IMG/VR virus record: IMGVR_UViG_3300035181_000236
Location: 1-20,260 of that record
From: a virus
Direction: 5' to 3' (one strand)
DNA: 20,260 nt
The first letter of the stretch is position 1. Every line of letters starts with the position of its first letter. Both the position numbers and the translations under genes were made by a program. Positions 1,029-20,260 of this stretch are shown here, one piece after another. Below the pieces are notes generated by a model. The model made no database searches. It saw nothing but the letters and a program-made list of their open reading frames with translations, and had not been told where the DNA came from.

Positions 1029-1718
1029 ATGGCACAACAAGACCAACGCGCAAGAATACAGCCGAAAACGCTTGCTATAGATAGTTCTGGCAATAATGAA
1101 GTGCTCGGTCCACGCGATCCATCAAATATATTATTTCCTTTATGGTCTACACGCGGTATTATTTTTCCATATACCCCATCAGTATCGACAGGCAGTGTTG
1201 TAGAATATGATAATTCTAGCTTCATTCATTCAAACTATGGCTATAATGCATATGTTAGATCGTTTCCAAAACCTATTAGTATTACTGCGGAATTTACTGC
1301 ACAATCTAACGACGAAGCATTATATTTATTAGCTGTGATACATTTCTTTAGATCCATTACGAAATCCTATTTTGGTGTTAATCCATACTTAAAAGCAGGT
1401 ACACCTCCGCCAACATTAATATTTAATTATTTAGGTGATTACCAATATAATAATGTGCCCGTAGTTGTTAAAAATTTCGAATACACATTACCTGCTGATA
1501 TTGATTATATTCCTGTAAACACTGCTAACAATCAAATATATTCGGAAAACATTGGTGTGAGTTTACCACAAGGTAATAATGGAGGATTCACATGGGTTCC
1601 TACGCATTTAACTGTACAACTAGACTTAGATACTCAATATATACCTATTCAACTTCGTAATGAATTTAATCTGGACGAGTTCCGACAAGGTAAACTAATT
1701 AATAAAGGCTACATTTAA
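1029..1718 (+). CDS. 48: Baseplate tail-tube cap protein, gp48-like
   Basis: The 229-residue protein is expected to cap the hub and start tail-tube polymerisation in the baseplate. The supporting signature is a GTPPPTLIF...GDYQYNNVPVVVKNFEYTLPADIDYIP block (about residues 124-162), which I recall as typical of T4-like gp48. It is preceded by FPKPISITAEFTAQSNDEALYLLAVIHFFRS, resembling tube-protein folds. It is clearly shorter than T4 gp48 (about 364 residues). The start is supported by AGGAG (1015-1019) nine bases upstream and the late promoter before it. Its stop overlaps the next start (TAATG), indicating translational coupling. A gp54-type tube protein is an alternative; the position next to gp53 and hub genes fits either. 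Confidence 0.7.
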   Translation: MAQQDQRARIQPKTLAIDSSGNNEVLGPRDPSNILFPLWSTRGIIFPYTPSVSTGSVVEYDNSSFIHSNYGYNAYVRSFPKPISITAEFTAQSNDEALYLLAVIHFFRSITKSYFGVNPYLKAGTPPPTLIFNYLGDYQYNNVPVVVKNFEYTLPADIDYIPVNTANNQIYSENIGVSLPQGNNGGFTWVPTHLTVQLDLDTQYIPIQLRNEFNLDEFRQGKLINKGYI

Positions 1719-2005
1719 TGGCTGCAAATTCGAAAGATACGAGTCCTTATTCGCAAACACCGATTAAAAATTGGTATTTAGATTTATGGGTTCCTCGAAA
1801 TATAACTAAGAGCGATTTTGATAAAATTATCATCATACCACCCGCATTTAATCAGCGACCAGACTTATTGAGTAATCAGGAATATGGTACACCTAAATTG
1901 TGGTGGGTATTTGCACTACGTAACCCAGACTTAATCATTGATCCTATTAACGATTTTATTTCTGGCTTAGAAATTTATATACCGAATAACATATTGAAGA
2001 GCTAA
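1718..2005 (+). CDS. 53: Short baseplate wedge protein, gp53-like
   Basis: This 95-residue protein carries the hallmark of T4-like gp53: QEYGTPKLWWVFALRNPDL (residues about 54-72) followed by DPINDFISGLEIYIPN, a LysM-like fold ending. In T4, gp53 joins wedges to each other and to the hub during baseplate closure. T4 gp53 has about 196 residues, so this is about half length and consists of little beyond the conserved segment. The ATG overlaps the gp48-like stop by one base, and the stop lies one base before the next ATG, so translation is probably coupled through the three genes. Confidence 0.8.
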   Translation: MAANSKDTSPYSQTPIKNWYLDLWVPRNITKSDFDKIIIIPPAFNQRPDLLSNQEYGTPKLWWVFALRNPDLIIDPINDFISGLEIYIPNNILKS

Positions 2006-4695: not shown

Positions 4696-7245
4696 ATGGC
4701 ATACATTAGCACCTCAACAAGAACAACAAAATCGAGTGATACACAGACCGCTTTAGGGCGTTCATCTTCACTATACGGCGTATTTCTTGGATTTATAAAA
4801 CAGGCAACAGATGTCCAACGTAATGGTCGGTTAATGGTCTGGATTCCTGAATTTGGATCAGCGCCGGATAATCCTAGCGGGTGGACATTAGTAAATTATT
4901 GTTCACCTTTTGCCGGAGCAACGAATGTAGATACTATAAGCAAAACCGATACGCATCAATTTGACCAAACACAGACATCGTATGGAATGTGGATGGTGCC
5001 ACCCGACGTTAATAACGAAGTATTAATTATGTTTATTAATGGCGATCCGTCGCGTGGTGTATGGATTGGATGTTTATATAACCAATTTATGAATAATATG
5101 GTGCCAGGTATGGCAGCAGATGCAAAGAATTGGGAATATCCTGGCAAGATAGTGCCTGTAGCAGAATATAATAAATGGGACACATCGGTAACAGAACCTG
5201 ATCGCGCAATTAAACCATTCGAAAAAACAAAGTTTAGAGGTGTAAGTAATCAGGGGTTAATTAATGATCGTAGTCGCGGAACAACAACATCTAGTGCCCG
5301 TAGAGAAGCACCTAGTAATGTATTCGGCATTATTACTCCTGGTCCAGTAATTGACCCAAGTGTAACATCTGATAAATTTCGTAGGAAAGGCGGTTCATCA
5401 TTTATTATGGATGATGGCACAGGGACAGAATATATCCAGCTTACTACTAAAACCGGAGCTCAAATTAGATTAGATGAAACTAATGGATTCGTGTATCTAC
5501 TTAATAGAGATGGTACGGCATGGGTGCAGATGGATCAGAAAGGTAATATAGATATCTTTAGTGCTGTCGATATATCCTTGCGCGGTCAACGTGATGTTAA
5601 TATTCGTGCCGACAGAAATATTAATATGGAAGCCGGTCAGAATATATACATGAAGGCTGCAAAAGACACAATACAAGAAACGACTGTATTTACATATGAT
5701 GTAAATAATGTTCCTAAAACAAAAACTATACCTGTTTGGAACTATAAGGGCGAAGGTAAGGGCGATGGCGGTAATATTGTGATGCAAGCACTCAACAACT
5801 GGCATAGCACAACTAAAAATAGTGCATTCCTGACAGTTATTGACAACAATATGGATATAGACATAGGAAATGCATTCTCCTTAACTACTATATCGGCAGG
5901 ACAAGATTACAATTCAAAATTAGGTATTAAAATGTCAACAGCCGCAGCATTTGATATTGTTGCTACTGGTAATATTCGTGTAGGATCGAATGGTAGTATA
6001 TCAGTTGTAGGTATTTCAGACATAACTGTTTGCGCAGATGCTGATATTAGCATAAAGTCATCAGCCAATATACGAGCAGCGGCAGGCAGCGATATATTAT
6101 TAGAATCGATGACATTTGGTGTTACAGCGAACACGTTATTATCCGGTACATTAGGTGTAGTAGGTTTAACTAGTATTGCAGGCGGATTAAGTGCCGGTGG
6201 AACAATAAATTTAGGAACAGCAGTATCTGTAAGTCCGCCACCATCTGCGAATCCCGGCGCAGCCGAAGCAGCTATGACAGCCGGTGTTGCAAAACCTGCA
6301 GAAGTTAAACAACTAACAGAAAAAATTAATATCCTTGCGACATGGATTCCGACAGTTACTTATCCTACATGGAAACCAAATACTGCATATGCAGGCGGTG
6401 CTATAGTGGTTAATAATAGCATTACATATATTGCAAATAATAAAGGTGTACCGGCAGCAGCAACATTTAATGCACCATTTTGGACTATTTTTATTCCTGA
6501 GGATAAATTTAAAAGAAAATCGGAAGCATTACAAACGACTGTTTCTAGATTTCCTACATATGAACCTTGTCCGGAACATGAGACATTTAGTTTTGGGTCA
6601 ATCGGCGGTTATACACCAAAACAAACTGAAGCAGCAAAAACTTATAATGGGTCAAGCGGTCCCGGCAGTAGTGCAACTAGTTCGCCTCTACCGGATACTA
6701 CCCCTGGTGCAAATAATAAAGATATTCCTCCTACTCCGGCAGATGAAAGTGCTGTTACTAAAGATTTTAATATGGCAGCATATCAATGCCAATTAAAAAT
6801 AAATGAGGGTGTTAAATATACTTCATATAATGATAGTAGGGGATTGCCAACGGGCGGTATTGGACATTTATTGCGCACAAACGAGATTTCTAAATATCCT
6901 GTGCCGTCTACTATTACTGAAGAACAAGTTAATGCATGGTTCCAAGCTGATTCACCTGTTTCTATTTCCGGTGCGCAAAGATTACTAGGTATAGACACAT
7001 GGGGTAATTTATCTGATGTAAGAAAACGTGCTTGTGCAGACTTATGTTATAACATGGGTGAGGGCGGATTGAGTAAATTTAAAAACTTCCTATCTGCAAT
7101 GAAAGCAGGTGATTATAATGCAGCCGGTGCCGCATTAAGGGATTCGGGATGGTTTAATCAGGTAGGACAACGTGGCCCGCGAATTATATCGATGATTGTT
7201 AACAACACAGATCCTAGCGGCTGTGATAAAAAATTTCCAGGATAA
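4696..7245 (+). CDS. 5: Baseplate hub spike with C-terminal lysozyme, gp5-like
   Basis: The 849-residue protein is expected to form the membrane-piercing spike and cut peptidoglycan during DNA entry. An OB-fold-like N domain (about 26-137: VFLGFIKQATD, NGRLMVWIPEFG, VLIMFINGDPSRGVWIGC) is followed by beta-helix octads of pattern [DN]-[IV]-x-[LIM] at 284-323 and 418-473. A CBM5/12-like module with NTAYAGGAIVVNNSITYIA lies at about 556-599, and a Gly/Ser/Pro linker at about 640-690. A T4-type lysozyme domain (GH24) closes the chain at about 691-849. There E704, D713 and T719 keep the exact spacing of T4 lysozyme E11, D20 and T26 (NEG-x7-ND...TGGIGHLL), with CADLCYNMGEGGLSKFKNF and WFNQVGQRGPRII further on. 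In T4 gp5 the lysozyme sits between OB-fold and helix, so the order here differs. The ATG follows a weak TGGAA site. Hydrolase activity is inferred from the intact triad. Confidence 0.88.
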   Translation: MAYISTSTRTTKSSDTQTALGRSSSLYGVFLGFIKQATDVQRNGRLMVWIPEFGSAPDNPSGWTLVNYCSPFAGATNVDTISKTDTHQFDQTQTSYGMWMVPPDVNNEVLIMFINGDPSRGVWIGCLYNQFMNNMVPGMAADAKNWEYPGKIVPVAEYNKWDTSVTEPDRAIKPFEKTKFRGVSNQGLINDRSRGTTTSSARREAPSNVFGIITPGPVIDPSVTSDKFRRKGGSSFIMDDGTGTEYIQLTTKTGAQIRLDETNGFVYLLNRDGTAWVQMDQKGNIDIFSAVDISLRGQRDVNIRADRNINMEAGQNIYMKAAKDTIQETTVFTYDVNNVPKTKTIPVWNYKGEGKGDGGNIVMQALNNWHSTTKNSAFLTVIDNNMDIDIGNAFSLTTISAGQDYNSKLGIKMSTAAAFDIVATGNIRVGSNGSISVVGISDITVCADADISIKSSANIRAAAGSDILLESMTFGVTANTLLSGTLGVVGLTSIAGGLSAGGTINLGTAVSVSPPPSANPGAAEAAMTAGVAKPAEVKQLTEKINILATWIPTVTYPTWKPNTAYAGGAIVVNNSITYIANNKGVPAAATFNAPFWTIFIPEDKFKRKSEALQTTVSRFPTYEPCPEHETFSFGSIGGYTPKQTEAAKTYNGSSGPGSSATSSPLPDTTPGANNKDIPPTPADESAVTKDFNMAAYQCQLKINEGVKYTSYNDSRGLPTGGIGHLLRTNEISKYPVPSTITEEQVNAWFQADSPVSISGAQRLLGIDTWGNLSDVRKRACADLCYNMGEGGLSKFKNFLSAMKAGDYNAAGAALRDSGWFNQVGQRGPRIISMIVNNTDPSGCDKKFPG

Positions 7246-7248
7246 CAT

Positions 7249-8022
7249 ATGACTTGTTCTGCACCAACAGTGGTAGTCGGCGGGGTAACATTATCTACAA
7301 GTGATTTCGAAAATGCACAAGCACTATTAGAATTGAGCGGAGACGGCGGCGATCCTACACTAGACGGATATGACGAGAATGTAGCCGGTGGAAACAATTC
7401 CACAGGAACAGCAGGAGTTCAGATTGCTAATCCAAGCACACAAACATCGTTACCAACACCGAGCCCGATTCCAGGCACAGAGTCAAATACTAGACCGCCT
7501 CCTGACAATCCGGGCTCGCCAGTTACGTGTGCAACCTGGGCTGGAAATTATGACGATCAATTAAGCCCTAATTTTAAGGTACGAGATTTTACTGTTAATG
7601 CACTGTTTCCGAATCAATTAGTAGATTATCAAACTTATACTGCGAATGCAAGATGTTGTAATTTACAGGCGCTTGCTAAAAATGTTGCAGAGCCGTTATT
7701 AGCAAAATTTGGAACATTTAAAATAAATTCAGGTATTAGAAATGCATCATCAACTCCGTCGGGCGTTAGTCAGCACATAACTGGCGAAGCAATGGATGTG
7801 CAATTTGCGGGTTGGAGTTACGCAACATATTGGGATAATGCACAGTGGGTTAAAGATAACATACCTTACGATCAGTTTATATTCGAACACAGTGACAAGA
7901 CTGGGTTAGCATGGTACCATCTTAGTTTCAGTCAATCTGCACCAAGAGCGCCGTCTAGTCCCACTAAAGTTATGACAATGTTCAGAAATCACTATGACCC
8001 AGGCTTGCAAAGACATGGTTAA
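7249..8022 (+). CDS. M15-family peptidase (Peptidase_M15_3 type), probable peptidoglycan hydrolase
   Basis: The C-terminal half (about 120-250 of 257 residues) carries the zinc-peptidase signature SxHxxGxAxD as SQHITGEAMD, with H176 and D183. It is followed by YDQFIFEHS with E213 as probable catalytic base and WYHLSF with H224 as third zinc ligand. Known relatives are D-Ala-D-Ala carboxypeptidases or endopeptidases that cleave peptidoglycan stem peptides. Residues 1-95 are Gly/Pro/Thr/Asn-rich and look like a flexible tether. There is no signal peptide or membrane segment. The gene starts three bases after the spike-lysozyme stop codon and precedes the gp25-like gene, so it is embedded in the baseplate operon. 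It may be a virion-borne tail-tip peptidase or a lysis enzyme expressed with late genes; no holin is visible in the window. Family confidence is high, biological role moderate. Confidence 0.82.
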   Translation: MTCSAPTVVVGGVTLSTSDFENAQALLELSGDGGDPTLDGYDENVAGGNNSTGTAGVQIANPSTQTSLPTPSPIPGTESNTRPPPDNPGSPVTCATWAGNYDDQLSPNFKVRDFTVNALFPNQLVDYQTYTANARCCNLQALAKNVAEPLLAKFGTFKINSGIRNASSTPSGVSQHITGEAMDVQFAGWSYATYWDNAQWVKDNIPYDQFIFEHSDKTGLAWYHLSFSQSAPRAPSSPTKVMTMFRNHYDPGLQRHG

Positions 8023-8078: not shown

Positions 8079-8498
8079 ATGGCATCTAATCAAAAAGGTT
8101 TAGTTCAACGAAATATCATTACAAGGAAACCATACTTTGTAGGATTTAACACGGTAGGACAACCTAATCCACCATATTCATTAACTAATATTGAAATAGT
8201 TAAACGAGATATACTAAATCAATTTGCAACGCCGATTGGTTCGAGGTTAATGTTACCTAGTTTCGGATCGAATATTTTTAATTATCTATTCGACCCATTT
8301 GATGATTATACAAAAAATGCGATTATAGCAGATGCTGTAAGGGTTGTACAAGATGATCCGAGGGTGCAATTTGTATCCATTGATGTATTTCAAAATGATC
8401 AAGCACTTACAGTTGCTTTGGTACTGTTATTTGTGCCGGAATCTGTTACAGATAACCTGTTCGTAATTTTCTCATTAACCGATAAAGAGAGTTTCTAA
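8079..8498 (+). CDS. 25: Baseplate wedge protein, gp25-like (GPW/gp25 family)
   Basis: The 139-residue length fits the family (T4 gp25 is about 132). The conserved core RDILNQFATPIGSRLMLPSFGSNIFNYLFDPFDD (residues 43-76) is followed by a helix and the DDPRV motif (92-96), the counterpart of the conserved EPR motif in gp25 proteins, with Glu replaced by Asp. A closing beta hairpin (LTVALVLLFVP) follows. In contractile tails gp25 holds the wedge core bundle together with gp6 and contacts the sheath start; the next gene here is gp6-like, as in many T4-like phages. The stop overlaps the gp6-like ATG (TAATG), suggesting translational coupling. Despite older names, this family is structural and is not treated here as a lysozyme. 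Confidence 0.9.
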   Translation: MASNQKGLVQRNIITRKPYFVGFNTVGQPNPPYSLTNIEIVKRDILNQFATPIGSRLMLPSFGSNIFNYLFDPFDDYTKNAIIADAVRVVQDDPRVQFVSIDVFQNDQALTVALVLLFVPESVTDNLFVIFSLTDKESF

Positions 8499-11400
8499 TG
8501 TCAGAAAGTATTCGCCAATCAAACCTTTTCGCTGCTGAGGATTATAAAAAGGTATTTCAAGCATATCAATTTATTGATTATACAGCATATGACTTCGACA
8601 CACTGAAACAAGCGTTAATAAATTATGTTCAAACTTATTATCCTGAAGATTTCAATGATTATATCGAAAGTTCGGAATTTATTGCAATTATCGAATTACT
8701 TGCATATTTTGGCACGAGTTTAGCATTCAGAACTGATTTAAACAGTCGTGAAAACTTTATAGACACCGCCGAGCGTAGAGAAAGTATTATCCGTCTTGCG
8801 CAAATGGTTAACTATGTGCCGAGCAGGAATATTGCAGCTAGCGGATTATTTAAAATAGCATCGGTACAAACAGATCAGCCATTAACGGATGCTAACGGTG
8901 TTAATATTAACAATCATTCTATATTTTGGAATGACCCTAATAATCCCGATTGGTTTGATCAATTTGTTCAAGTATGTAATGCTGCATTTAGTCAGTTAAA
9001 TCCGTTTGGGCGCCCGACTAAGAGCGGTGCAATAGGAAGTATTCCTACCGACTTATATCAATTAAATAATATATTACGATTAAGTGTTACATATCCTGCT
9101 ATTATTACTATTAACGGACAGCAATATCCGATCGATATATGTAACCCAGATTTTGTACCAAATCAGACAATATTTGAACGTGACCCCGACCCTGCTAATG
9201 CATTTAATTTTATATATCGTAATGATAGTTTAGGTGTATCCTCGGCAAATACTGGTTTTTTCTTATATTTTAAGCAAGGTAACTTAATCAATACGGATAC
9301 TAATTTTGATTTTCCAGTACCAAACAGATTATTCCCGATAGAAATACAGGATATTAACCAGACTGACGTATATGTTCAAGAAACAGACGAAGCAGGTAAT
9401 GTAATAAACAAATGGTTAAGGGTGCCTGCATTAGCAGGTGAAAATATCATTTATAATAGTATTCAGTTTGCGCAACGAAATATATTCGATGTTTTATCGG
9501 GCGCAAATGACACGATTACTGTTAGATTTGCTGACGGTAATTTCGGCAATGTGCCGACAGGATTATTTAGATTCTGGACCCGTATTAGTGCAAATCAAGC
9601 ATTAGTTATTCGTCCAAATGATGCACAAGGATTACAGATTAATATTCCTTATATCGGAGTAGATCAGCAATCATATACATTATCTATAACTTTCAATCTA
9701 GAACAAACTATCGGTAACGCTGCACCTACTGAATCTAATGACCAGATTAGATTACGTGCGCCCGAAGTATTCTCGACACAATCGCGTATGGTTAATGGCA
9801 GTGACTATAATGTATTACCACTAATATATGGAAATCAAATTGCAAAAATAAAAGCAATTGGACGAACATACAGCGGTCAAAGTCGTTATATTGACCTGAA
9901 TGATCCAACAGGTTTCCATCGTGATTTAATTATATTTGGTCAGGATGCCGCGCTATACAGGGATAATCAAAATATTCTAAGAGAAGTAATTAAAGATTCA
10001 TCCAATTCGGGAACCATTGATCAAATTATCGTAAATACGATTCAGGAGATGCTCCGAGATAATAAAGTTAATAATTTCTTTTACGACGAATATCTTCCTC
10101 AATTCGAATCTACTATTAGAGTTAATCCTACTCTTGCTTCTCCGACCGGATATTCTATATTAGATTTAAGTAATCCTAATCAACAATCATTGTTTTGGAA
10201 AACAAGTCCATTAAAATTTAAAAATACAACAGGTTATTTTGCAAATACGACAGTACCTAATGCGCCGGCTGTAGAATTAAACAATGAATTTACTACTAAT
10301 AATGTTCCTGGCGGCACATATCAGCCATGGGCATTTATTAAGTCGGGATCAGTATTGGAATTTGCAAATCCTGCTAACCCTGTTGCAACATTAAATTCAG
10401 CAAGTGTTAACAGCGTAATTCAGTCCGGTATACCGTTAATTGTTAATCCGTTAAATCCGTATGCAAACATTGGACCGGTCGAGTTAGGTGTCGAAGAACA
10501 AGCCGATTTCCAAGCAATGACACTTTACCCTGCTTTTAGAAATGCATTAAATTCTACAGAAATTGCAGAAGTTGTTGCATCAATTAATGCCGGCATATCG
10601 TTTTGGTTGTATTATGATTTATTAACTGACGAGTGGCATACATCGACAACCGCAACACCTGGATTACAAGATCAAGTTGACCAGCCATGGAAATATGCAC
10701 CTGCAATTATTAGCGGCATCAATACAGAAATATATTCAGACTGGGCGCCATATGCTGCTAGTGGTTTACTATATATCGCTATTGCAAGCAATAATCAACT
10801 AGGTACAACTACATATGATCTGACTGCCAGAGGCCGCACTTATGTATTCGAATCCTACAGGGATGTAAGATTCTATTGGGAACCAAATCAGATTGTTATA
10901 GATAATGCAACAGGATTAGCATTACAAGATACTATCGAAATTATGCCATTTATTAATACAAATGCAAGCATAGATAATAATTTGCCAGTAATTACTAACC
11001 CGACAACTGCATTTTTAGAAACACAAATTAATTTTAATATAACTGGTGTATATATTCAGGACGATGGATATTTAGATAATGCTAAAGTAGAAGTATCCTT
11101 AGTCGACGAAAACGAGGATGGTATACCCGATGACCCTAGTGCGTTTGATAGAATTGTTGCTGCCGACGACAGAGTTGTATTTGAATTTTTTACAGATGCA
11201 TTAACCGGTTATCAAAGCACTCGCCCGTGGATTTGTAATTGGAAAACTAATTTAGAAAATATATCGACTGCATTATATGTATATTTCCCTGTTAATCCAA
11301 CGGATCCTACATTATTATACAGTCCGCCGTATATCGCAGATCAAATATTATCGGGGCTTGATATACTTAATCCGGGCAGTGTTGTCGGACTTAATTACGT

Positions 11401-12406
11401 ATATATGGATGATGCTGATTTATTATTCATTAATAATCTATCACAGATAGTGTATACCGATCCTATAACTAATCCAACTGATATTACTATTGCAGATCAA
11501 TTAAGCGCATTCTTTAATAACATTACAACTATATATCCGTGGTTATCTAATACCGGTGCGCTAGTTAATAAATCAAGTATTTTAACAACATATTTCTTAA
11601 ATAAATCATATTTATTATCAGCAATTAGTCCACCTGGTTTTGGCGTATATTATTCATTAGAATTTGCAACAACACTTAACACTGGATATGTAACAAGCAG
11701 TATAGTTGTAGAAGCAAAAGATACGAGTCATTATGATAAAAATGGTAAATCGTTTACACAAAATACTACAATTAATCCGCCTAGTCGACTGCCGTTATAC
11801 TTTAAGTGGAGCCATTTTTCACCTATTGATCAGCGAATAGATCCATCGGCGTCGAATATAATCGATATGGTTGTTATTACTGACAGTTATTATACAGATG
11901 TAACAAATTGGAAAAATAGTAATAGTAATTTATTCTCATTTCCTGCCGCACCAACAACTGAAGAATTAAGGGTTCAGTTTCAAAACTTAGATCAATATAA
12001 GATGGTTAGTGATTCTATGGTTTGGAATTCGGGAACATTTAAAATTCTATTTGGAACTCAAGCACAGACAGAATTACAAGCAACATTTAAAGTAGTAAAA
12101 TCTCCGTCAACAAATATAAGTGATAATGAGATAAAGACTATGGTTATAACAGCTATTGATCAATATTTTGATATTAGAAACTGGGATTTTGGCGAAAAGT
12201 TTTTCTACACAGAATTAGCAGCATTTATCCATCAACAACTTTCTAGACTCATAAGTTCAGTTGTTATTGTACCGAATAACGCTAACTCCCAGTTCGGAAA
12301 CCTATTTGAAATTATAGCTAGTCCGACTGAAATTTTCATATCAACTGCAACAGTTAATAATGTTTCTATAGTGTCAAATTTGACGGATCAGAATTTACGT
12401 GTATAA
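8498..12406 (+). CDS. 6: Baseplate wedge protein, gp6-like (baseplate J family), enlarged
   Basis: The N terminus resembles T4-like gp6: FDTLKQALINYVQTYYPEDFNDY, then ESSEFIAIIELLAYFGTSLAFRTDLNSRENF and RRESIIRLAQMVNYVPSRN (about residues 34-110). A baseplate-J-like core with NGSDYNVLPLIYGNQIAKIKAIGRTYSG lies at about 431-458. The conserved C-terminal part includes FDIRNWDFGEKFFYTELAAFIHQQL and PTEIFIS (about 1224-1285). gp6 dimers form the ring that joins wedges and drives the baseplate shape change. At 1302 residues it is about twice T4 gp6 (660); the extra mass is in the middle (about 500-1150). That region includes DENEDGIPDD (870-879), a pattern like calcium-binding thrombospondin-type loops. 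Start follows the gp25-like stop by overlap. No frameshift is seen. Confidence 0.85.
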   Translation: MSESIRQSNLFAAEDYKKVFQAYQFIDYTAYDFDTLKQALINYVQTYYPEDFNDYIESSEFIAIIELLAYFGTSLAFRTDLNSRENFIDTAERRESIIRLAQMVNYVPSRNIAASGLFKIASVQTDQPLTDANGVNINNHSIFWNDPNNPDWFDQFVQVCNAAFSQLNPFGRPTKSGAIGSIPTDLYQLNNILRLSVTYPAIITINGQQYPIDICNPDFVPNQTIFERDPDPANAFNFIYRNDSLGVSSANTGFFLYFKQGNLINTDTNFDFPVPNRLFPIEIQDINQTDVYVQETDEAGNVINKWLRVPALAGENIIYNSIQFAQRNIFDVLSGANDTITVRFADGNFGNVPTGLFRFWTRISANQALVIRPNDAQGLQINIPYIGVDQQSYTLSITFNLEQTIGNAAPTESNDQIRLRAPEVFSTQSRMVNGSDYNVLPLIYGNQIAKIKAIGRTYSGQSRYIDLNDPTGFHRDLIIFGQDAALYRDNQNILREVIKDSSNSGTIDQIIVNTIQEMLRDNKVNNFFYDEYLPQFESTIRVNPTLASPTGYSILDLSNPNQQSLFWKTSPLKFKNTTGYFANTTVPNAPAVELNNEFTTNNVPGGTYQPWAFIKSGSVLEFANPANPVATLNSASVNSVIQSGIPLIVNPLNPYANIGPVELGVEEQADFQAMTLYPAFRNALNSTEIAEVVASINAGISFWLYYDLLTDEWHTSTTATPGLQDQVDQPWKYAPAIISGINTEIYSDWAPYAASGLLYIAIASNNQLGTTTYDLTARGRTYVFESYRDVRFYWEPNQIVIDNATGLALQDTIEIMPFINTNASIDNNLPVITNPTTAFLETQINFNITGVYIQDDGYLDNAKVEVSLVDENEDGIPDDPSAFDRIVAADDRVVFEFFTDALTGYQSTRPWICNWKTNLENISTALYVYFPVNPTDPTLLYSPPYIADQILSGLDILNPGSVVGLNYVYMDDADLLFINNLSQIVYTDPITNPTDITIADQLSAFFNNITTIYPWLSNTGALVNKSSILTTYFLNKSYLLSAISPPGFGVYYSLEFATTLNTGYVTSSIVVEAKDTSHYDKNGKSFTQNTTINPPSRLPLYFKWSHFSPIDQRIDPSASNIIDMVVITDSYYTDVTNWKNSNSNLFSFPAAPTTEELRVQFQNLDQYKMVSDSMVWNSGTFKILFGTQAQTELQATFKVVKSPSTNISDNEIKTMVITAIDQYFDIRNWDFGEKFFYTELAAFIHQQLSRLISSVVIVPNNANSQFGNLFEIIASPTEIFISTATVNNVSIVSNLTDQNLRV

Positions 12407-12468: not shown

Positions 12469-15400
12469 ATGACCCAATACATTAAAAAACTGCCCGCGGT
12501 ATTTCAGACAGTAACTGAATCGAAGTTTTTCGACGCAACCTTTGATCAAATTTTCTCGAAAAAAGACAGCGACTTACTATCCGGTTATTTAGGACGCAGA
12601 AATCCAGGCGACTATAATCCTGTCACTGATTTTTATCTTCCTGAACCGTCTAAAAATAGAACACGTTGGCAATTAGAGGCTACTGCATATGCAAAAGATG
12701 CAAGTAGCAATAAAACAAATATATTCTTTTACGAAGATTTATTAGAACGTATAGAATATTTTGGTGGCAATACACTTAATCAAGATAGATTATTCGAATC
12801 AGAATACTATAGTTTCGCGCCACCCATTGATTATGATATGTTTATTAACTATCAAAATTATTACTGGGTAGAGCAAGGTCTAGCAACTATTACTATAACT
12901 GGTGTATTAGGTGCCGATATTATTGGACAGCCGTCGTTTAACACTAATCAGGTAGTTGGTGCTACCCCGGCGAACTTAACTATTACAACTGGGATGACTA
13001 TTGTATTATCTAGTGACCCATTATACAGTGTTCCACATATCGTAGAAAACATTGGCGGTTGTACAGGTATACGGTTAGTTCCACAATTTCCAGATTTTAC
13101 CGAAGGTACTATATTCGAATTTTTACCATGGGATAGTTCGATTGAATTATCTACAGGAAGAGTTATAGATAATATACACTGGGATGCAAATACATGGGAT
13201 ACTCAGTCACAACCATCTGCAGGCGATTATATAACGATTGAACGAGGCTCACTAGATAGGAATGCATGGTCTAGGACTAATAAATGGTTTCATATTCAGG
13301 CTATCAATGATACTATCGCAGCAACAGGGACAAGTTTTCCACAAAATTCTACACGGGCATTACGTCCTATTATCCAATTTATAGCTGACTTAAACTTATG
13401 GAAATCTGGAACACAGTTTAGATCAGAAATAGACTATGGATTTAGAAATGATCAATTCGGATTACCGTTGCATGTGTTGACGTTCCAAGGTCAACAAATA
13501 ACAACTGTCAATGCTGCACTTAGCACAAATTTTATCGGCGGAGAACTAGTATGTTTCTTTAACGATACTACTTCGTTTGACTTGTGGGATCTAAGTGCGT
13601 GGGGTTCGCCTCCAGACATGTGGGATGCAGGTTTTGCATTGTTTAATGAATATATTTTTCAGGTAGAAATATTACCGAGCGGTATAACTAATTTCATACC
13701 ATATACTGCATGGACTACTCCGGTGCTAGAGGGTGACATTGTATTTGTAATAGAAGACGGACCATACGATGCCGCCCAACGTGGTCAAACATGGTATTAT
13801 AGCGACGGTATCTGGCAAGAAGCTTTTAATGACAAGCTGTCGACCAATCAAGCACCTTTATTTCAATTATATGATCACAATGGTGTTAAATTAGATGATG
13901 CTGTGACGTATCCGAAGAACACGTTTAGTGGTAACAAGATATTTTCTTATAAACTTGATACAACGCCGGGTGCATCGATAGATCCTGTATTAAAATTTGC
14001 AATTGTATATACTGCATTAGGTCAGTCATCCGACATTGTTTTTCAAAATAATCTCATTACTGATAGATATGTATATAGCACGTTATCGTTACCAATCACA
14101 GGTTATTATTACTATAAAACTGTGAATGATCCAGTTATATATAACAACTGGAATCTATACCAACCTTGTCAATGTGACATTGTGCCACCCCCACCAGTAA
14201 ATTGTTTAGAAACAAGTAAGCAGCGTGTTATTGACCAATATGTTGTAGGTTACGGTACAGAATTTCAATTTAAATTAAGTGTTACTCCATACGGGTATCC
14301 GTCTTCCCCGGATTTAATTGTAATTGTAAATGACGCCGAAGTTAAAAATTCTACCGAGCAAATAGACGGATATACATTTGCTACAATTAACAATGAATTA
14401 TATATAGATCTTAACGTATATATTGCTTCACTATTGTCCACAAATCCTGCACAACCGCCTGTTGTAGAAATACAAACATATACACACGGATTATTAGATC
14501 CGTTAGCAACAGGGTATTTCCAGATTCCGCAACAGTTGGAAGCTAATCCGACACAATTAGAAATCACAGAAATCAGCGGTAGTAACTTAATTGAACAATT
14601 TTCATCTATCATTGCAAATCAAATTGGCGAGATAGGAATTTCATTTGGCGGAAATAATAATTACCGTGATACTAGAAAAAATAGATCACTAGGAATGTAT
14701 ATTTTACAAAACGTCGCACCAGCATTAAAGTCGATGTTAGTATCCTCGTCCGACGATTTAGATTTTATTGCTGCTGAACGATTTAGTCAAGACGAGTATA
14801 CCAAATTTAAGAATAAATATTTACGCACAGCATTACAACTTATAAATCAAGGTTTTAATCCAGTACAATATCACAATAATACTATTATTGTTAGTGCATG
14901 GGTTGAAGAAATATTAAAAGTAGTTAATGTATCTAATGAATTTTCGAATGCATTTGCATATTCATATATGATTGCAAACGGAAGCTCATTTGCTAATGAA
15001 ACTGCAATTGTTCCGCTTACCGGTGATTTAGTATTAACAAATTATGTTGATTTATCGGATCCACGTAATGCATTGTATATATACGATACTACTGGCGGTC
15101 AAGAAGAACTATTGGTAATTGGGACAGATTATGAATTTATTTCCCAAAATCTATTAATAGAAATTAAGTTTAATTCTGCTAGAATCGGTAATCCAATATT
15201 TGTTGCTTTTTATAAAAATCCTATACCTGCATATATTCCATCTACTCCGTCGAAAGTCGGCGCTTATGCTACTTACTTGCCACGATTAGAATGGGACACA
15301 TCTTATACTATTCCTACTTGGGTCATTATTGGTCATGACGGTTCTAAAACAATCGCATATGGCGATTACAGAGATCAGTTATTATTGGAACTTGAAAAAA

Positions 15401-18400
15401 GAATTTATAATCTAATTGAATATAAATTTAGGCACCAATATTATTTGCCTGTAAGATTAGAGTCAGTGAAAGATGGATTTTACAGACAAACCAGATATTC
15501 TCGACAAGAGTATTTAGATATTACCGAATCTTACCTAAATAAATGGTCGGCAAAAAATCGTGCAAATTACCGAGCAAACGACTGGTACACAACAAGTATC
15601 GATCCTGCAGTAATTCCTAGTTTTGTTCCGGGCGTAGGTAATATTTGGAAATTATATAATTATAGAAATGCAGTAAATGCATTAGCTGTACCATTAAATT
15701 TACCCGGTAATTGGAAGGGAATATTCCAACATTACTATGACACATATTGTCCAGATACTCGCCCATGGGAAATGTTAGGATTTAGCCAACAACCGTCGTG
15801 GTGGGAATTTGAATATGGTGCTCCTGTTGTTAACATGGCTGGACTAAATGTATGGACTGCTACAGCCGCGGGCAATAATAATATGTGGCAAGACTTGGAA
15901 GACGGCATAATTCGGCAAGGATCGTCGGCCATTTATGATCCTGTTACTCTACTACCAGATGCGCAGCCTATGTGGAAAAGACCCGGATTATCGGCAATTA
16001 TACCTGTCGATAATGCAGGAGAATTACTGTCGGTAATGACATTGTTTAATGTTGCATTCTCGGGAAATTATTATGAGCCGTTTGATCATTTTGACGAAGA
16101 ATGGATATATGGCGACGGTAGTCCAGTGGAACAAGCATGGATGTCAACTTCGGCATATGCATTTAGTGTACAGGAATTTTTATTCCTAATGAAACCAGCG
16201 CCATATGCTGAATTAATGTGGGACACCGTGGGCACGACTATATCCCCGGGTGTAATAATTATTCCCGGAATTGAAAGTCCTGTAATGTCGAATACAAACT
16301 GGCAATATGTGCAGAATGATACATTTACAAGTGATGACCCATTCTTTGCATGGATGCGACCAAAAAATAAAGACCAGATAGTTCACGCAGAAATTATAAA
16401 TAACATTCCTGCAATCAGATACGGTTATCAGCGTTGGATTAGTGATAGAATTTCTTTCTTAGGAAAAAATATTGCTACTACTTTTGGACAAAAAATTAGA
16501 ACATTAGATGTTAATCTTGCAAATAAACTCGCTGGATTTACTAATAAAGATACTAGTAATCTATATATTGAAGCAATAAGCCCAAATGCAACAACTAATA
16601 GTTTAATATTACCTTCGACTAATTTCCAAGTTATATTACATAAGAGTCCTGTAGTAGACACATATTCATATAGTGGAATTATTATTCGTGCCCTTGCAGA
16701 TGGAACATTTGCAGTTTATGGATATGATTTATTAAATTCTGCATTTACAGTATTGGATCGTTCACCATCTGTATTAATAGATGTATCTGTCGGTGGTACT
16801 CCTGCACCTTTCTTATATTTCACTCCAGGTGCAACATATAATGAAGGCGATATTGTTCGATACAATGGTATATATTATGTATCAATAAGCACACATTTAG
16901 CACAGAAATTTATATCAAAAAATTACCAAAAACTATCAAGTCTGCCTATTATTGATGGAATATCAGTAGTATATAAACCTGTATCCGAAGAATCTATTAC
17001 TAAAATTCCATACGGAACCGTTTTAAGATCGGCACAAGATGTTTTCGATTTAATGATTGGGTGGGGAGCATATCTAGAATCAAAAGGTTGGAGATTTGAC
17101 GAAGTAAATGCAGACACAAATATGTTAAGTAACTGGTTAGCATCAGCAAAACAATACCTATTTTGGTTGAACACAAGTTGGGCGCCCGATGCATCGATTC
17201 AGTTAAGTCCTCTTGCAAATAAAGCAACACTGGTAGTTTCTCGTGGTTATCCTAACGATGTTGAATCATTATCTAACGGAGTATATAGTATTCTTGACAA
17301 ATATGGAATAGCTATAGCGCCGAATAATACATCAACTAATAGAGATGGCAGAATGATTTCTGTCGAACCAACTACATTAACGGCCGGTGGCATATATTAC
17401 TTGCAAGTTAACACATCTGAAACTGAACATGTTATAATTTGCGACAATGTAACAAGTTTTAACGATACAGTTTATTCTCCATTGCTGAGAGCTAGGCAAC
17501 AACGAATTCGATTTATAGGATTTAGGAGCAATGGTTGGTACGGTAAGATGGAGGCACCTGGTTACCTCGTAATAGACAACCAACTAGTACCTAACTTCGA
17601 CACTATTGTCGACAGTATGCGGTATTTTTACGACCCTAATGTTGTAATCGATAATCCAAGTTTAGAAGACCTTGGTCGCCATTTAATTGGATACGAAAGT
17701 AAGAGTTATCTAGATAATTTACAAGTATCGAACGATGTCCAATATTTATTTTACCAAGGTGCTATTAGACAGAAAGGTACTGTCCAAGCATTTGACAAAT
17801 TATTTAGATCCACTAAAATACAGACAGATGAAATTATAGAAGTGTTTGAAGAATGGGCATTAAAATTAGGTTCGTTTGGAAATACGATCGAACAAGTATC
17901 GACAGAATTTGTTCTTATCCCTGAACAAAACACTGGCGAAGTTGTTGTTGCACGATTAAACTATATTCCGTCAACTATCGGGTTTGTAAGACTGATTAAT
18001 ATTCTTAATGCAGAAAATAAATATACCACTGTTCCTAAGATTGTAATTGCACCACCAGATGCAACTATTACTGATCCGAATCTAACAGCACCGCTTAGAC
18101 AAGCAAAGGCATATGCTATATTAGATATCGATGGCAGAATTTCTCGTGTAGATATTTCTGATCCAGGATATGGATATTTAACAGCACCATATATCCAGAT
18201 TGATTCAGGTACATCGTCGCATTCACTTGACAAATTATATAGTGTATGGCAAGGAGAGATTATAAAAGATAGTGTCCTTGATAATATTATCAATATTGAT
18301 ATTGATCAAACTACTAAGTGGGTAGTTCGACCAAACGATCCGTCATATTCTTTACAGTTTCCTGTAACAAATAAAATAGAATATTCACTGCCGAATGCCG

Positions 18401-20260
18401 GCTATGTGAATTTCGATGATGTTACATGGGCATCATTTGATGTAAATCAAACTACAATTAAATGGGGCACACCATCATTAAATCCTGCCGCGCTGGATAC
18501 AGTATGGATTGCTAAAACATTCACTGAAGACTGGTGTGTTTACAAGATGGTAGAATTTAATGAAAACTGGAGTATTGTTGATGTTGGCGGCGATCTGGTA
18601 TTATTAACAGATATCGGAACATCTATTATTCCTGAATATTGGAATTCTGCCATAGGTAATAGAACTGACTTCGGAAATATGATAGTAATGCAGCAAGTTG
18701 TCGACGGAAAACCAGTATCTGATAATAATTATACTGTTGGATTTACGCCATATACAACTACCGACTATAATACGCCGGGTATTTATATCGACCCAACTAC
18801 GCTTATATCATACAATGCATATTACTTAACAACTTTAGCTGGCGTACCTATTACATCTTCCGAAATAGGTAATTATGATGTCTTTACTGATTTATTATTA
18901 TATAAAACAATGCGTTGGTTCGATAAACCTGTAGAACCATTATTACCGACATATGTTGGACTAGGAGATTTAATTTGGGTCGATAATGTCGCAGCTAAAT
19001 GGGCAGTATTTAAAATACAAGCAAATCCTGGTGTATGGGATATTAATTTTTGGGATCCAACTATTATAGATTTTTGGAGCCCAAATTACGGATGGGACGT
19101 CACCGGGCCACTGTATTTCTCACTTCATAGATTACAAGAATCGTTAATAAATACGTCGTTATTCGAGAGTGCAACGGTATTTGCTACAGGTGGCGAAGAA
19201 GTAGTCCAGTTACCTATATATGATCCATTTAAGGATATATTACCTGGTCCTGCAAAACAGAATATTACATATATATCTTTACAGGACCCTGCTAGTTATA
19301 ATGTAACAGCAAATGAAGTATTATTCAGCGAAAATATAACATTTTCTAGTAGGCAGGTCGGACAATTATGGTGGGATTTGTCAGCAGTTCGTTATACATA
19401 TTATGAACAGCCGATTGCACTAGACGGGTCAGAAACCGAATTAGAAAATCTTATATACAGAAGAAACAACTGGGGTCGTTCGTTTCCTGGTAGCACTATT
19501 GCGATTTATGAATGGGTGCAAAGTGATGTTCCGCCGTCGAAGTATACGGGAACAGGTATACCTAAAGATACAACGACATTTGTGCAAGTTAATACATCAA
19601 ATAGATTTACTAGTGCAACACAGACGAATTATTATTTCTGGGTGCTAAATGCAACCGATAAGCCTAATGTAGAAAACAGAACTATGGCTGCATTAGATGT
19701 TGCTTTGTTATTACAATCGCCTAAGAGCCAGAATTTTTCGTTCTTTTGCCCGATACAGCAGACAGCAACTAATAATTCTTATATGTTTTACAATGTGCAG
19801 GAGATATTGGCATACCGTGGAAATAATATACAATTACAATATAGGCTCACTGAACGAGAAGATCAGGAACATGCGCAGTGGTCATTCTTCAGGGAAGGCG
19901 ATTCTGCATCTATAGTTACTGACCAATTTTGGAATAAGTTAGTTGATAGCATATGCGGATACACAAAGGTATTACCGGTATCCGATGAATATACTGGCAT
20001 CATTGTTGCAAAGAACTTACCGTGGGATATCTATGGATGGGATATTACTCAATTTGACTCTGCCACATCGACTAATGACATAGTATATGGTGAAATCCTG
20101 CCTGTGCCAGATCCTACATTAAGTGAATATGAAAAGTATGGTATTGAATACAGGCCGCGACAAGGAATGTTTGTATCATTACCAAATGCACGAAAAGTAT
20201 TTGTTCAGGCTGCAAATGATTTGTTAAAACATATTCCTATAAGAGATACTAACCCCGGTT
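12469..20260 (+). CDS. Giant virion/baseplate structural protein, 3' end outside the window (gp7-position)
   Basis: I translated this frame line by line: it is open for 2597 codons and leaves the window without a stop. The ATG is immediately preceded by an in-frame TAG (12466-12468) and a GGAAA ribosome site (12460-12464), so the start is well fixed. The chain starts MTQYIKKLPAVFQTVTESKF. It has motifs I recall from very large structural proteins of marine T4-like phages: ERGSLDRNAWSRTNKWFH (about 255-272), IIGHDGSKTIAYGDYRDQLLLELEKRIYN (about 954-981), YDTYCPDTRPWEMLGFSQQPSWW (about 1091-1113) and QVGQLWWDLSAVRYTYYEQP (about 2297-2316). A CBM5/12-like segment lies at about 1451-1489. The order after gp25 and gp6 matches T4 gene 7 (1032 residues), so a wedge or peripheral baseplate role is likely. 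Homology to gp7 itself is unproven. No signal peptide or membrane segment is evident. Confidence 0.8.
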   Translation, partial: MTQYIKKLPAVFQTVTESKFFDATFDQIFSKKDSDLLSGYLGRRNPGDYNPVTDFYLPEPSKNRTRWQLEATAYAKDASSNKTNIFFYEDLLERIEYFGGNTLNQDRLFESEYYSFAPPIDYDMFINYQNYYWVEQGLATITITGVLGADIIGQPSFNTNQVVGATPANLTITTGMTIVLSSDPLYSVPHIVENIGGCTGIRLVPQFPDFTEGTIFEFLPWDSSIELSTGRVIDNIHWDANTWDTQSQPSAGDYITIERGSLDRNAWSRTNKWFHIQAINDTIAATGTSFPQNSTRALRPIIQFIADLNLWKSGTQFRSEIDYGFRNDQFGLPLHVLTFQGQQITTVNAALSTNFIGGELVCFFNDTTSFDLWDLSAWGSPPDMWDAGFALFNEYIFQVEILPSGITNFIPYTAWTTPVLEGDIVFVIEDGPYDAAQRGQTWYYSDGIWQEAFNDKLSTNQAPLFQLYDHNGVKLDDAVTYPKNTFSGNKIFSYKLDTTPGASIDPVLKFAIVYTALGQSSDIVFQNNLITDRYVYSTLSLPITGYYYYKTVNDPVIYNNWNLYQPCQCDIVPPPPVNCLETSKQRVIDQYVVGYGTEFQFKLSVTPYGYPSSPDLIVIVNDAEVKNSTEQIDGYTFATINNELYIDLNVYIASLLSTNPAQPPVVEIQTYTHGLLDPLATGYFQIPQQLEANPTQLEITEISGSNLIEQFSSIIANQIGEIGISFGGNNNYRDTRKNRSLGMYILQNVAPALKSMLVSSSDDLDFIAAERFSQDEYTKFKNKYLRTALQLINQGFNPVQYHNNTIIVSAWVEEILKVVNVSNEFSNAFAYSYMIANGSSFANETAIVPLTGDLVLTNYVDLSDPRNALYIYDTTGGQEELLVIGTDYEFISQNLLIEIKFNSARIGNPIFVAFYKNPIPAYIPSTPSKVGAYATYLPRLEWDTSYTIPTWVIIGHDGSKTIAYGDYRDQLLLELEKRIYNLIEYKFRHQYYLPVRLESVKDGFYRQTRYSRQEYLDITESYLNKWSAKNRANYRANDWYTTSIDPAVIPSFVPGVGNIWKLYNYRNAVNALAVPLNLPGNWKGIFQHYYDTYCPDTRPWEMLGFSQQPSWWEFEYGAPVVNMAGLNVWTATAAGNNNMWQDLEDGIIRQGSSAIYDPVTLLPDAQPMWKRPGLSAIIPVDNAGELLSVMTLFNVAFSGNYYEPFDHFDEEWIYGDGSPVEQAWMSTSAYAFSVQEFLFLMKPAPYAELMWDTVGTTISPGVIIIPGIESPVMSNTNWQYVQNDTFTSDDPFFAWMRPKNKDQIVHAEIINNIPAIRYGYQRWISDRISFLGKNIATTFGQKIRTLDVNLANKLAGFTNKDTSNLYIEAISPNATTNSLILPSTNFQVILHKSPVVDTYSYSGIIIRALADGTFAVYGYDLLNSAFTVLDRSPSVLIDVSVGGTPAPFLYFTPGATYNEGDIVRYNGIYYVSISTHLAQKFISKNYQKLSSLPIIDGISVVYKPVSEESITKIPYGTVLRSAQDVFDLMIGWGAYLESKGWRFDEVNADTNMLSNWLASAKQYLFWLNTSWAPDASIQLSPLANKATLVVSRGYPNDVESLSNGVYSILDKYGIAIAPNNTSTNRDGRMISVEPTTLTAGGIYYLQVNTSETEHVIICDNVTSFNDTVYSPLLRARQQRIRFIGFRSNGWYGKMEAPGYLVIDNQLVPNFDTIVDSMRYFYDPNVVIDNPSLEDLGRHLIGYESKSYLDNLQVSNDVQYLFYQGAIRQKGTVQAFDKLFRSTKIQTDEIIEVFEEWALKLGSFGNTIEQVSTEFVLIPEQNTGEVVVARLNYIPSTIGFVRLINILNAENKYTTVPKIVIAPPDATITDPNLTAPLRQAKAYAILDIDGRISRVDISDPGYGYLTAPYIQIDSGTSSHSLDKLYSVWQGEIIKDSVLDNIINIDIDQTTKWVVRPNDPSYSLQFPVTNKIEYSLPNAGYVNFDDVTWASFDVNQTTIKWGTPSLNPAALDTVWIAKTFTEDWCVYKMVEFNENWSIVDVGGDLVLLTDIGTSIIPEYWNSAIGNRTDFGNMIVMQQVVDGKPVSDNNYTVGFTPYTTTDYNTPGIYIDPTTLISYNAYYLTTLAGVPITSSEIGNYDVFTDLLLYKTMRWFDKPVEPLLPTYVGLGDLIWVDNVAAKWAVFKIQANPGVWDINFWDPTIIDFWSPNYGWDVTGPLYFSLHRLQESLINTSLFESATVFATGGEEVVQLPIYDPFKDILPGPAKQNITYISLQDPASYNVTANEVLFSENITFSSRQVGQLWWDLSAVRYTYYEQPIALDGSETELENLIYRRNNWGRSFPGSTIAIYEWVQSDVPPSKYTGTGIPKDTTTFVQVNTSNRFTSATQTNYYFWVLNATDKPNVENRTMAALDVALLLQSPKSQNFSFFCPIQQTATNNSYMFYNVQEILAYRGNNIQLQYRLTEREDQEHAQWSFFREGDSASIVTDQFWNKLVDSICGYTKVLPVSDEYTGIIVAKNLPWDIYGWDITQFDSATSTNDIVYGEILPVPDPTLSEYEKYGIEYRPRQGMFVSLPNARKVFVQAANDLLKHIPIRDTNPG

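Follow-up and report, generated by a model that had tools for sequence, protein, structure and literature searches.

A jumbo-phage central spike with a putative lysozyme past its beta-helix and a conserved junction motif

The spike gene, its neighbourhood and its relatives

The window analysed here is a 20,260-nucleotide stretch of viral DNA (IMG/VR record IMGVR_UViG_3300035181_000236, positions 1 to 20,260). On its plus strand, at 4696..7245, a single uninterrupted ORF encodes a gp5-type central spike protein of 849 amino acids, which matches phrog_13211 ('baseplate hub subunit and tail lysozyme') over aa 31–325 in PHROGs (E 4e-65). The gene lies among baseplate genes on the same strand, encoding a gp53-like wedge subunit (1718..2005; phrog_7145, E 2e-25), a gp25-like wedge subunit (8079..8498; PF04965, E 9e-8) and a gp6-like wedge subunit (8498..12406; phrog_10646, E reported as 0, 1047 bits), while a late sigma factor is encoded on the opposite strand. 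This baseplate region is syntenic with those of RaK2, 121Q, CBB, PA5oct and XacN1. Further downstream, a giant plus-strand ORF of at least 2597 amino acids (12469-20259), open at the window end, matches phrog_10938 (virion structural protein).

Between the spike and gp25-like genes lies a plus-strand gene for a predicted M15-type zinc peptidase, a possible second wall enzyme (7249..8022; phrog_894, E 1e-13, with weak PF08291 and PF13539 matches). Its metal-binding motif, SQH176xxGxAxD183 ... WYH224 as read from the sequence, is intact, and the product may add peptide-bond cutting. In the window it directly follows the spike, and an M15-type gene is present in a subset of relatives; elsewhere the spike–gp25 slot holds GH24 in RaK2, 121Q and XaC1, M23 in XacN1 and no such gene in others.

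A scan of viral contigs found 60 IMG/VR loci encoding this spike protein, from which the same architecture, suggested for a metagenome search by an earlier sequence-only reading of the window, could be followed: all 34 of the aligned relatives carry a C-terminal lysozyme. The alignment comprises 35 rows, namely the window protein and 34 full-length relatives from independent metagenome contigs (~50–75% identical), and the counts given below for the carbohydrate-binding module and the catalytic triad refer to it. Some cultured relatives (PA5oct, SCTP-2) have no lysozyme on the spike, as might be expected if an assembly or annotation artefact had fused two genes in the window. We nevertheless reject an artefact of this kind as extremely improbable, because the fusion recurs in every full-length aligned relative, on separate contigs from separate samples (one contig being 385 kb), and it is also found in the sequenced isolates RaK2, 121Q and CBB.

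Domains of the spike protein

The protein is laid out as OB-fold, beta-helix, CBM5/12-like module, tether and GH24 lysozyme. The sequence-only reading had proposed this order, with the lysozyme of a central spike placed C-terminal to the beta-helix, unlike in T4 gp5, and Pfam and AlphaFold2 models agree with it along the 849-residue ORF. Since the full-length AlphaFold2 model was poor (pLDDT 54.7) outside the CBM (~85) and most of the lysozyme (~85–90), with VIA rows spanning the lysozyme only, the core was folded alone, as a monomer of residues 1–480 with 61 aligned sequences, giving a model with a pLDDT of 82.5 and a pTM of 0.68.

The OB-fold domain (aa ~26–130; 4771..5085, plus strand) contains a Phage_base_V OB match (PF04717) at aa 95–128 (E 8e-9, over the Pfam cut-off), and aa 25–130 of the model match contractile-system spikes and isolated OB folds in Foldseek and VIA comparisons. 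The intertwined beta-helix shaft (aa ~240–530; 5413..6285, plus strand) matches the DUF2345 beta-repeat family of Pfam weakly (E 0.003); aa 240–440 are modelled with a pLDDT of ~90 or above, and aa 370–530 vary in length and sequence among the aligned relatives. Top Foldseek matches of the core were contractile-injection spikes (7aef_q, E 7e-11), with further matches to the Anabaena system, AFP, PVC, VgrG, P1, T4 gp5 (1k28/1wth) and pyocin R2. VIA-align superposed the core on 7aef_q (Z 11.9, rmsd 2.9, 217 aligned), on VgrG1 4mtk (Z 9.4, rmsd 5.8, 225 aligned) and on T4 gp5 1k28 (Z 8.6, rmsd 11.3, 295 aligned), and a sequence profile of the core likewise retrieves 7aef_q (E 1e-9), along with several VgrGs. 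An OB-fold and a beta-helix are thus both present upstream of the lysozyme, in the core model and in its fold matches. VgrG proteins have a gp27-like part fused ahead of the OB-fold; this part is absent from the window protein, as the OB-fold starts near residue 26 and leaves no room for it.

The CBM5/12-like module (aa ~555–602; 6358..6501, plus strand) gives a PF02839 (CBM_5_12) match in the window protein at aa 558–579 that falls below the cut-off (E 0.017, 18.6 bits against 26.2); the segment taken alone reaches E 0.002, and one relative, L032, lies over the cut-off (E 2e-6, 28.1 bits). As only 12 of the 35 aligned rows carry the module and 23 lack it, we regard it as an optional cassette rather than a fixed part of the spike.

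The C-terminal domain (aa 690–849; 6763..7242, plus strand) is a predicted T4-type GH24 lysozyme with both the family match and the Glu/Asp/Thr triad: Phage_lysozyme (PF00959) matches aa 703–821 over its cut-off (E 1e-10, 42.5 bits against 22.3), and both the sequence and the model of the domain (Z ~17 for the model) match T4 gp5 and T4 lysozyme. As proposed from the sequence, the catalytic residues are intact: in the 35-row alignment E704 and D713 are invariant and T719 is present in no less than 90%. They also line up with the triad of T4 gp5. The T4 protein shares the OB-fold, the beta-helix and a GH24 domain with the same triad but is ordered OB-fold, lysozyme, helix, whereas the window lysozyme, at residues 690–849, lies past the helix. 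Every part of the protein is under purifying selection; pairwise dN/dS is mostly 0.03–0.1 over the OB-fold, the first part of the helix, the tether and the lysozyme (0.03–0.08 over GH24 in most pairs) with a tendency towards higher values in the CBM and where the helix varies; the ratios are rough, as several pairs approach saturation at synonymous sites.

The GH24 domain also matches the endolysin family phrog_7, which would fit an endolysin with a tail-like N terminus instead of a spike. This reading is very improbable given that the gene sits among baseplate genes in the order seen in RaK2-type phages, that the core matches contractile-system spikes and that homologues occur in virions (PMC5259590; PA5oct record). 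With an N-terminal OB-fold, a beta-helix shaft after it and a baseplate gene setting, the protein has the features of a gp5/VgrG-type spike, and we consider it highly probable that 4696-7245 encodes the central spike, presumably trimeric, of a jumbo myophage of the RaK2/PA5oct type, bearing a putative muramidase as C-terminal cargo.

Known spikes and the variable segment past the helix

The C-terminal-lysozyme layout is not new, since it has been described for RaK2 (PMC3622015, 2013) and CBB (PMC5259590, 2017). RaK2 gp078 (886 aa), a distant homologue of the window spike, was reported to have 'a very unusual domain composition' that sets it apart from T4 gp5, comprising a beta-helix and a lysozyme at the C terminus; the protein was not detected in virions (PMC3622015). 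In CBB_240, likewise a homologue of the window spike, a gp5 OB domain lies at the N terminus and a lysozyme at the C terminus, a difference from T4 that its authors noted, and mass spectrometry detected the protein in virions; an M23-like segment was also reported in CBB and other RaK2-like phages (PMC5259590). These RaK2-type spikes (RaK2 gp078/ORF078, 121Q gp587, CBB_240) share with the window protein the OB-fold, beta-helix, C-terminal GH24 domain and locus, with the gene order sigma55-like, structural, gp53, structural, spike, wall enzyme, gp25, gp6. They differ in that RaK2 has an M23-like segment (PF01551) before its GH24 domain, whereas a Pfam search of the window protein gave no M23 match at E up to 0.1, and in that the RaK2 group lacks the junction motif described below; the window protein has this motif and the CBM5/12-like module, and its GH24 domain falls on another tree branch.

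The closest core from a cultured phage (46–48% identity) is that of the Pseudomonas jumbo phage PA5oct, which also shares synteny and the junction motif, but its spike stops a few residues past the motif, without CBM or lysozyme; this spike is marked ESI-MS/MS in its database record. Outside phages, the evolved VgrG of Vibrio cholerae, VgrG3cp, shows that a contractile-system spike can carry a working muramidase at its C terminus (PMC9927483), but it belongs to type VI secretion and a toxin–immunity setting. Cyanophage S-SM1 gp5 was set aside as a parallel, having no GH24-like active-site motif by eye, with GH24 in another gene, and a word search of the Alcyoneusvirus adsorption and MIJ3 papers did not find lysozyme, spike or hub.

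In the spikes compared, taken from both cultured phages and viral contigs, the post-helix segment consists of nothing, GH24, M23 with GH24, SLT with CHAP, VanY or a trypsin-like domain. Cargo-less spikes include those of PA5oct (477 aa) and SCTP-2 (476 aa); M23 together with GH24 is carried by RaK2 and Vibrio phage 2.275.O, and other cargo includes VanY (L149, L150), M23 (L134) and SLT_3 (XacN1). Judged from these sequences, what follows the helix is a slot for exchangeable cargo, in which the enzyme has been swapped between lineages.

Several individual loci add to this range. The spike cargo of L112 (4932-7370) is an SLT transglycosylase with a CHAP domain. In Agrobacterium phage Atu_ph07 (L004, 5932-8529) the spike C-terminus is a trypsin-like protease (PF13365, E 6e-17), which the tail of the Phosso protein (L009, 4941-8075), with its long glycine-rich stretch, resembles by eye. 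Two GH24 domains per spike chain are found at L096 and L108, and by HMM also at L099 and L100, and a close relative of the window spike (L053, 2675-5902) is lengthened to 1076 aa by additional repeat-like and proline-rich stretches past the helix.

The GH24 domains of the spikes do not form one clade, with p-AU values of 0.023 for grouping those of the window and RaK2 together and 0.008 for grouping all spike GH24 domains, AU tests that provide moderate evidence because they rest on a quick 159-column tree and the groups were picked once an initial tree had been seen. To this extent they favour separate sources for the lysozymes of separate spike clades. Inheritance of a single C-terminal lysozyme by the whole jumbo-phage spike family, with loss in PA5oct-like spikes, would explain why C-terminal GH24 occurs in many lineages of the family; we find it unlikely, given the same AU tests and a core tree in which cargo-less spikes are nearest to the window clade, albeit with weakly supported deep branches. 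Free-standing lysozymes encoded next to the spike gene (RaK2 ORF073, 121Q gp586 and XaC1_315; L002, L008 and L007) nest among RaK2-type spike lysozymes, a placement suggestive of duplication between the cargo of the spike and the gene beside it.

Tether, junction motif and possible mode of action

The tether (aa 603–689; 6502..6762, plus strand) is ~85 residues long and predicted to be disordered (pLDDT ~25–31; aa 602–687 in the full-length model), in keeping with the flexible linker that the sequence-only reading had placed here. The notion that it is simply a passive flexible linker did not hold: its dN/dS of 0.03–0.14 is comparable to that of the enzyme, and this strong constraint, together with a motif shared far beyond the window clade, indicates that it is not a passive spacer.

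This junction motif, TTVSRFPTYEPCPEH in the window protein (aa 614–628; 6535..6579, plus strand), is conserved across the spike family with the consensus TIxxRxPTxEPxxxH, or more broadly TIxxR-hydrophobic-P-T/Y-H/Y/R/A/F-EP-aromatic or C-xx-H. A strict form of its centre is present in 32 of the 39 spikes of the window clade and 30 of 59 other spikes, where fewer than 0.2 are expected after shuffling, counts that show only a non-chance composition because related sequences are not independent. The motif ends the enzyme-free spikes of PA5oct, SCTP-2 and L107 and stands ahead of the cargo in loaded spikes, preceding the last GH24 domain in all 45 motif-bearing GH24 spikes. In XacN1, CM1, L129 and L132 the spike lacks the motif, which lies instead on the wall hydrolase encoded by the gene that follows (M23 in XacN1 and in CM1, M15 with tail lysozyme in L129, M23 with tail lysozyme in L132). 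A motif profile gave chance matches only against the PDB (E 0.26 or worse), tblastn with short motif segments returned near relatives or chance-level matches only, and a text search of the open-access literature on the motif letters retrieved unrelated papers only. A conserved junction motif that is reused on other wall enzymes appears to be undescribed.

Some spike tips hold a metal bound by histidines, P2 gpV being an example. The motif as such a helix tip was not adopted, as Tyr, Arg, Ala or Phe frequently takes the place of its first His, and it is further disfavoured by the ability of the motif to sit on a separate enzyme. T4 gp5 is cleaved beside its lysozyme during maturation. By analogy, the window lysozyme could be cut from the helix at virion maturation and held non-covalently by tether and motif, the tether being a processing site, and a segment predicted to be disordered yet strongly conserved is what a protease or docking site would look like; an S351L mutant of the T4 protein is in the PDB (1wth). 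However, the motif also ends enzyme-free spikes, which have nothing to cut off, and cleavage would be unnecessary for helix formation because the enzyme sits past the helix, at the far end, and we consider maturation of this kind improbable. We assign moderate probability to the motif being a putative docking or assembly tag. That it might serve tail-tip wall enzymes generally as a docking tag across a broad group of jumbo phages, following the enzyme between genes, is a more tentative proposal, which we hold to be possible but somewhat doubtful.

Drawing on knowledge of the spike family, we infer the following mode of action. Three chains would join via their OB-folds and beta-helix under the tail tube, which the spike trimer would close. 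Upon sheath contraction the helix would pierce the outer membrane, and three GH24 domains on their ~85-residue tethers would enter the periplasm with the tip and cut glycan strands, allowing the tube to pass; where present, the CBM5/12-like module could keep the lysozyme close to glycan that contains N-acetylglucosamine. A probable role of the motif, which stands where the slot begins, is to dock either the enzyme borne on the tip or the spike end onto another tail-tip or assembly protein, and the slot itself would swap enzymes between lineages, as in the 'evolved' VgrG proteins of type VI secretion.

What sequence comparison would add to the known layout is the exchangeable cargo slot, the optional CBM cassette, the separate lysozyme sources and the conserved tether motif. 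The T4 layout is only one solution, with a wide group of jumbo phages carrying a swappable wall enzyme past the needle, a load resembling that of type VI secretion spikes. If the docking-tag reading is true, enzymes could be swapped while delivery stays unchanged, and the motif would offer a concrete starting point for testing how tail-tip enzymes are mounted, a matter little understood in phages other than those of the T4 type.
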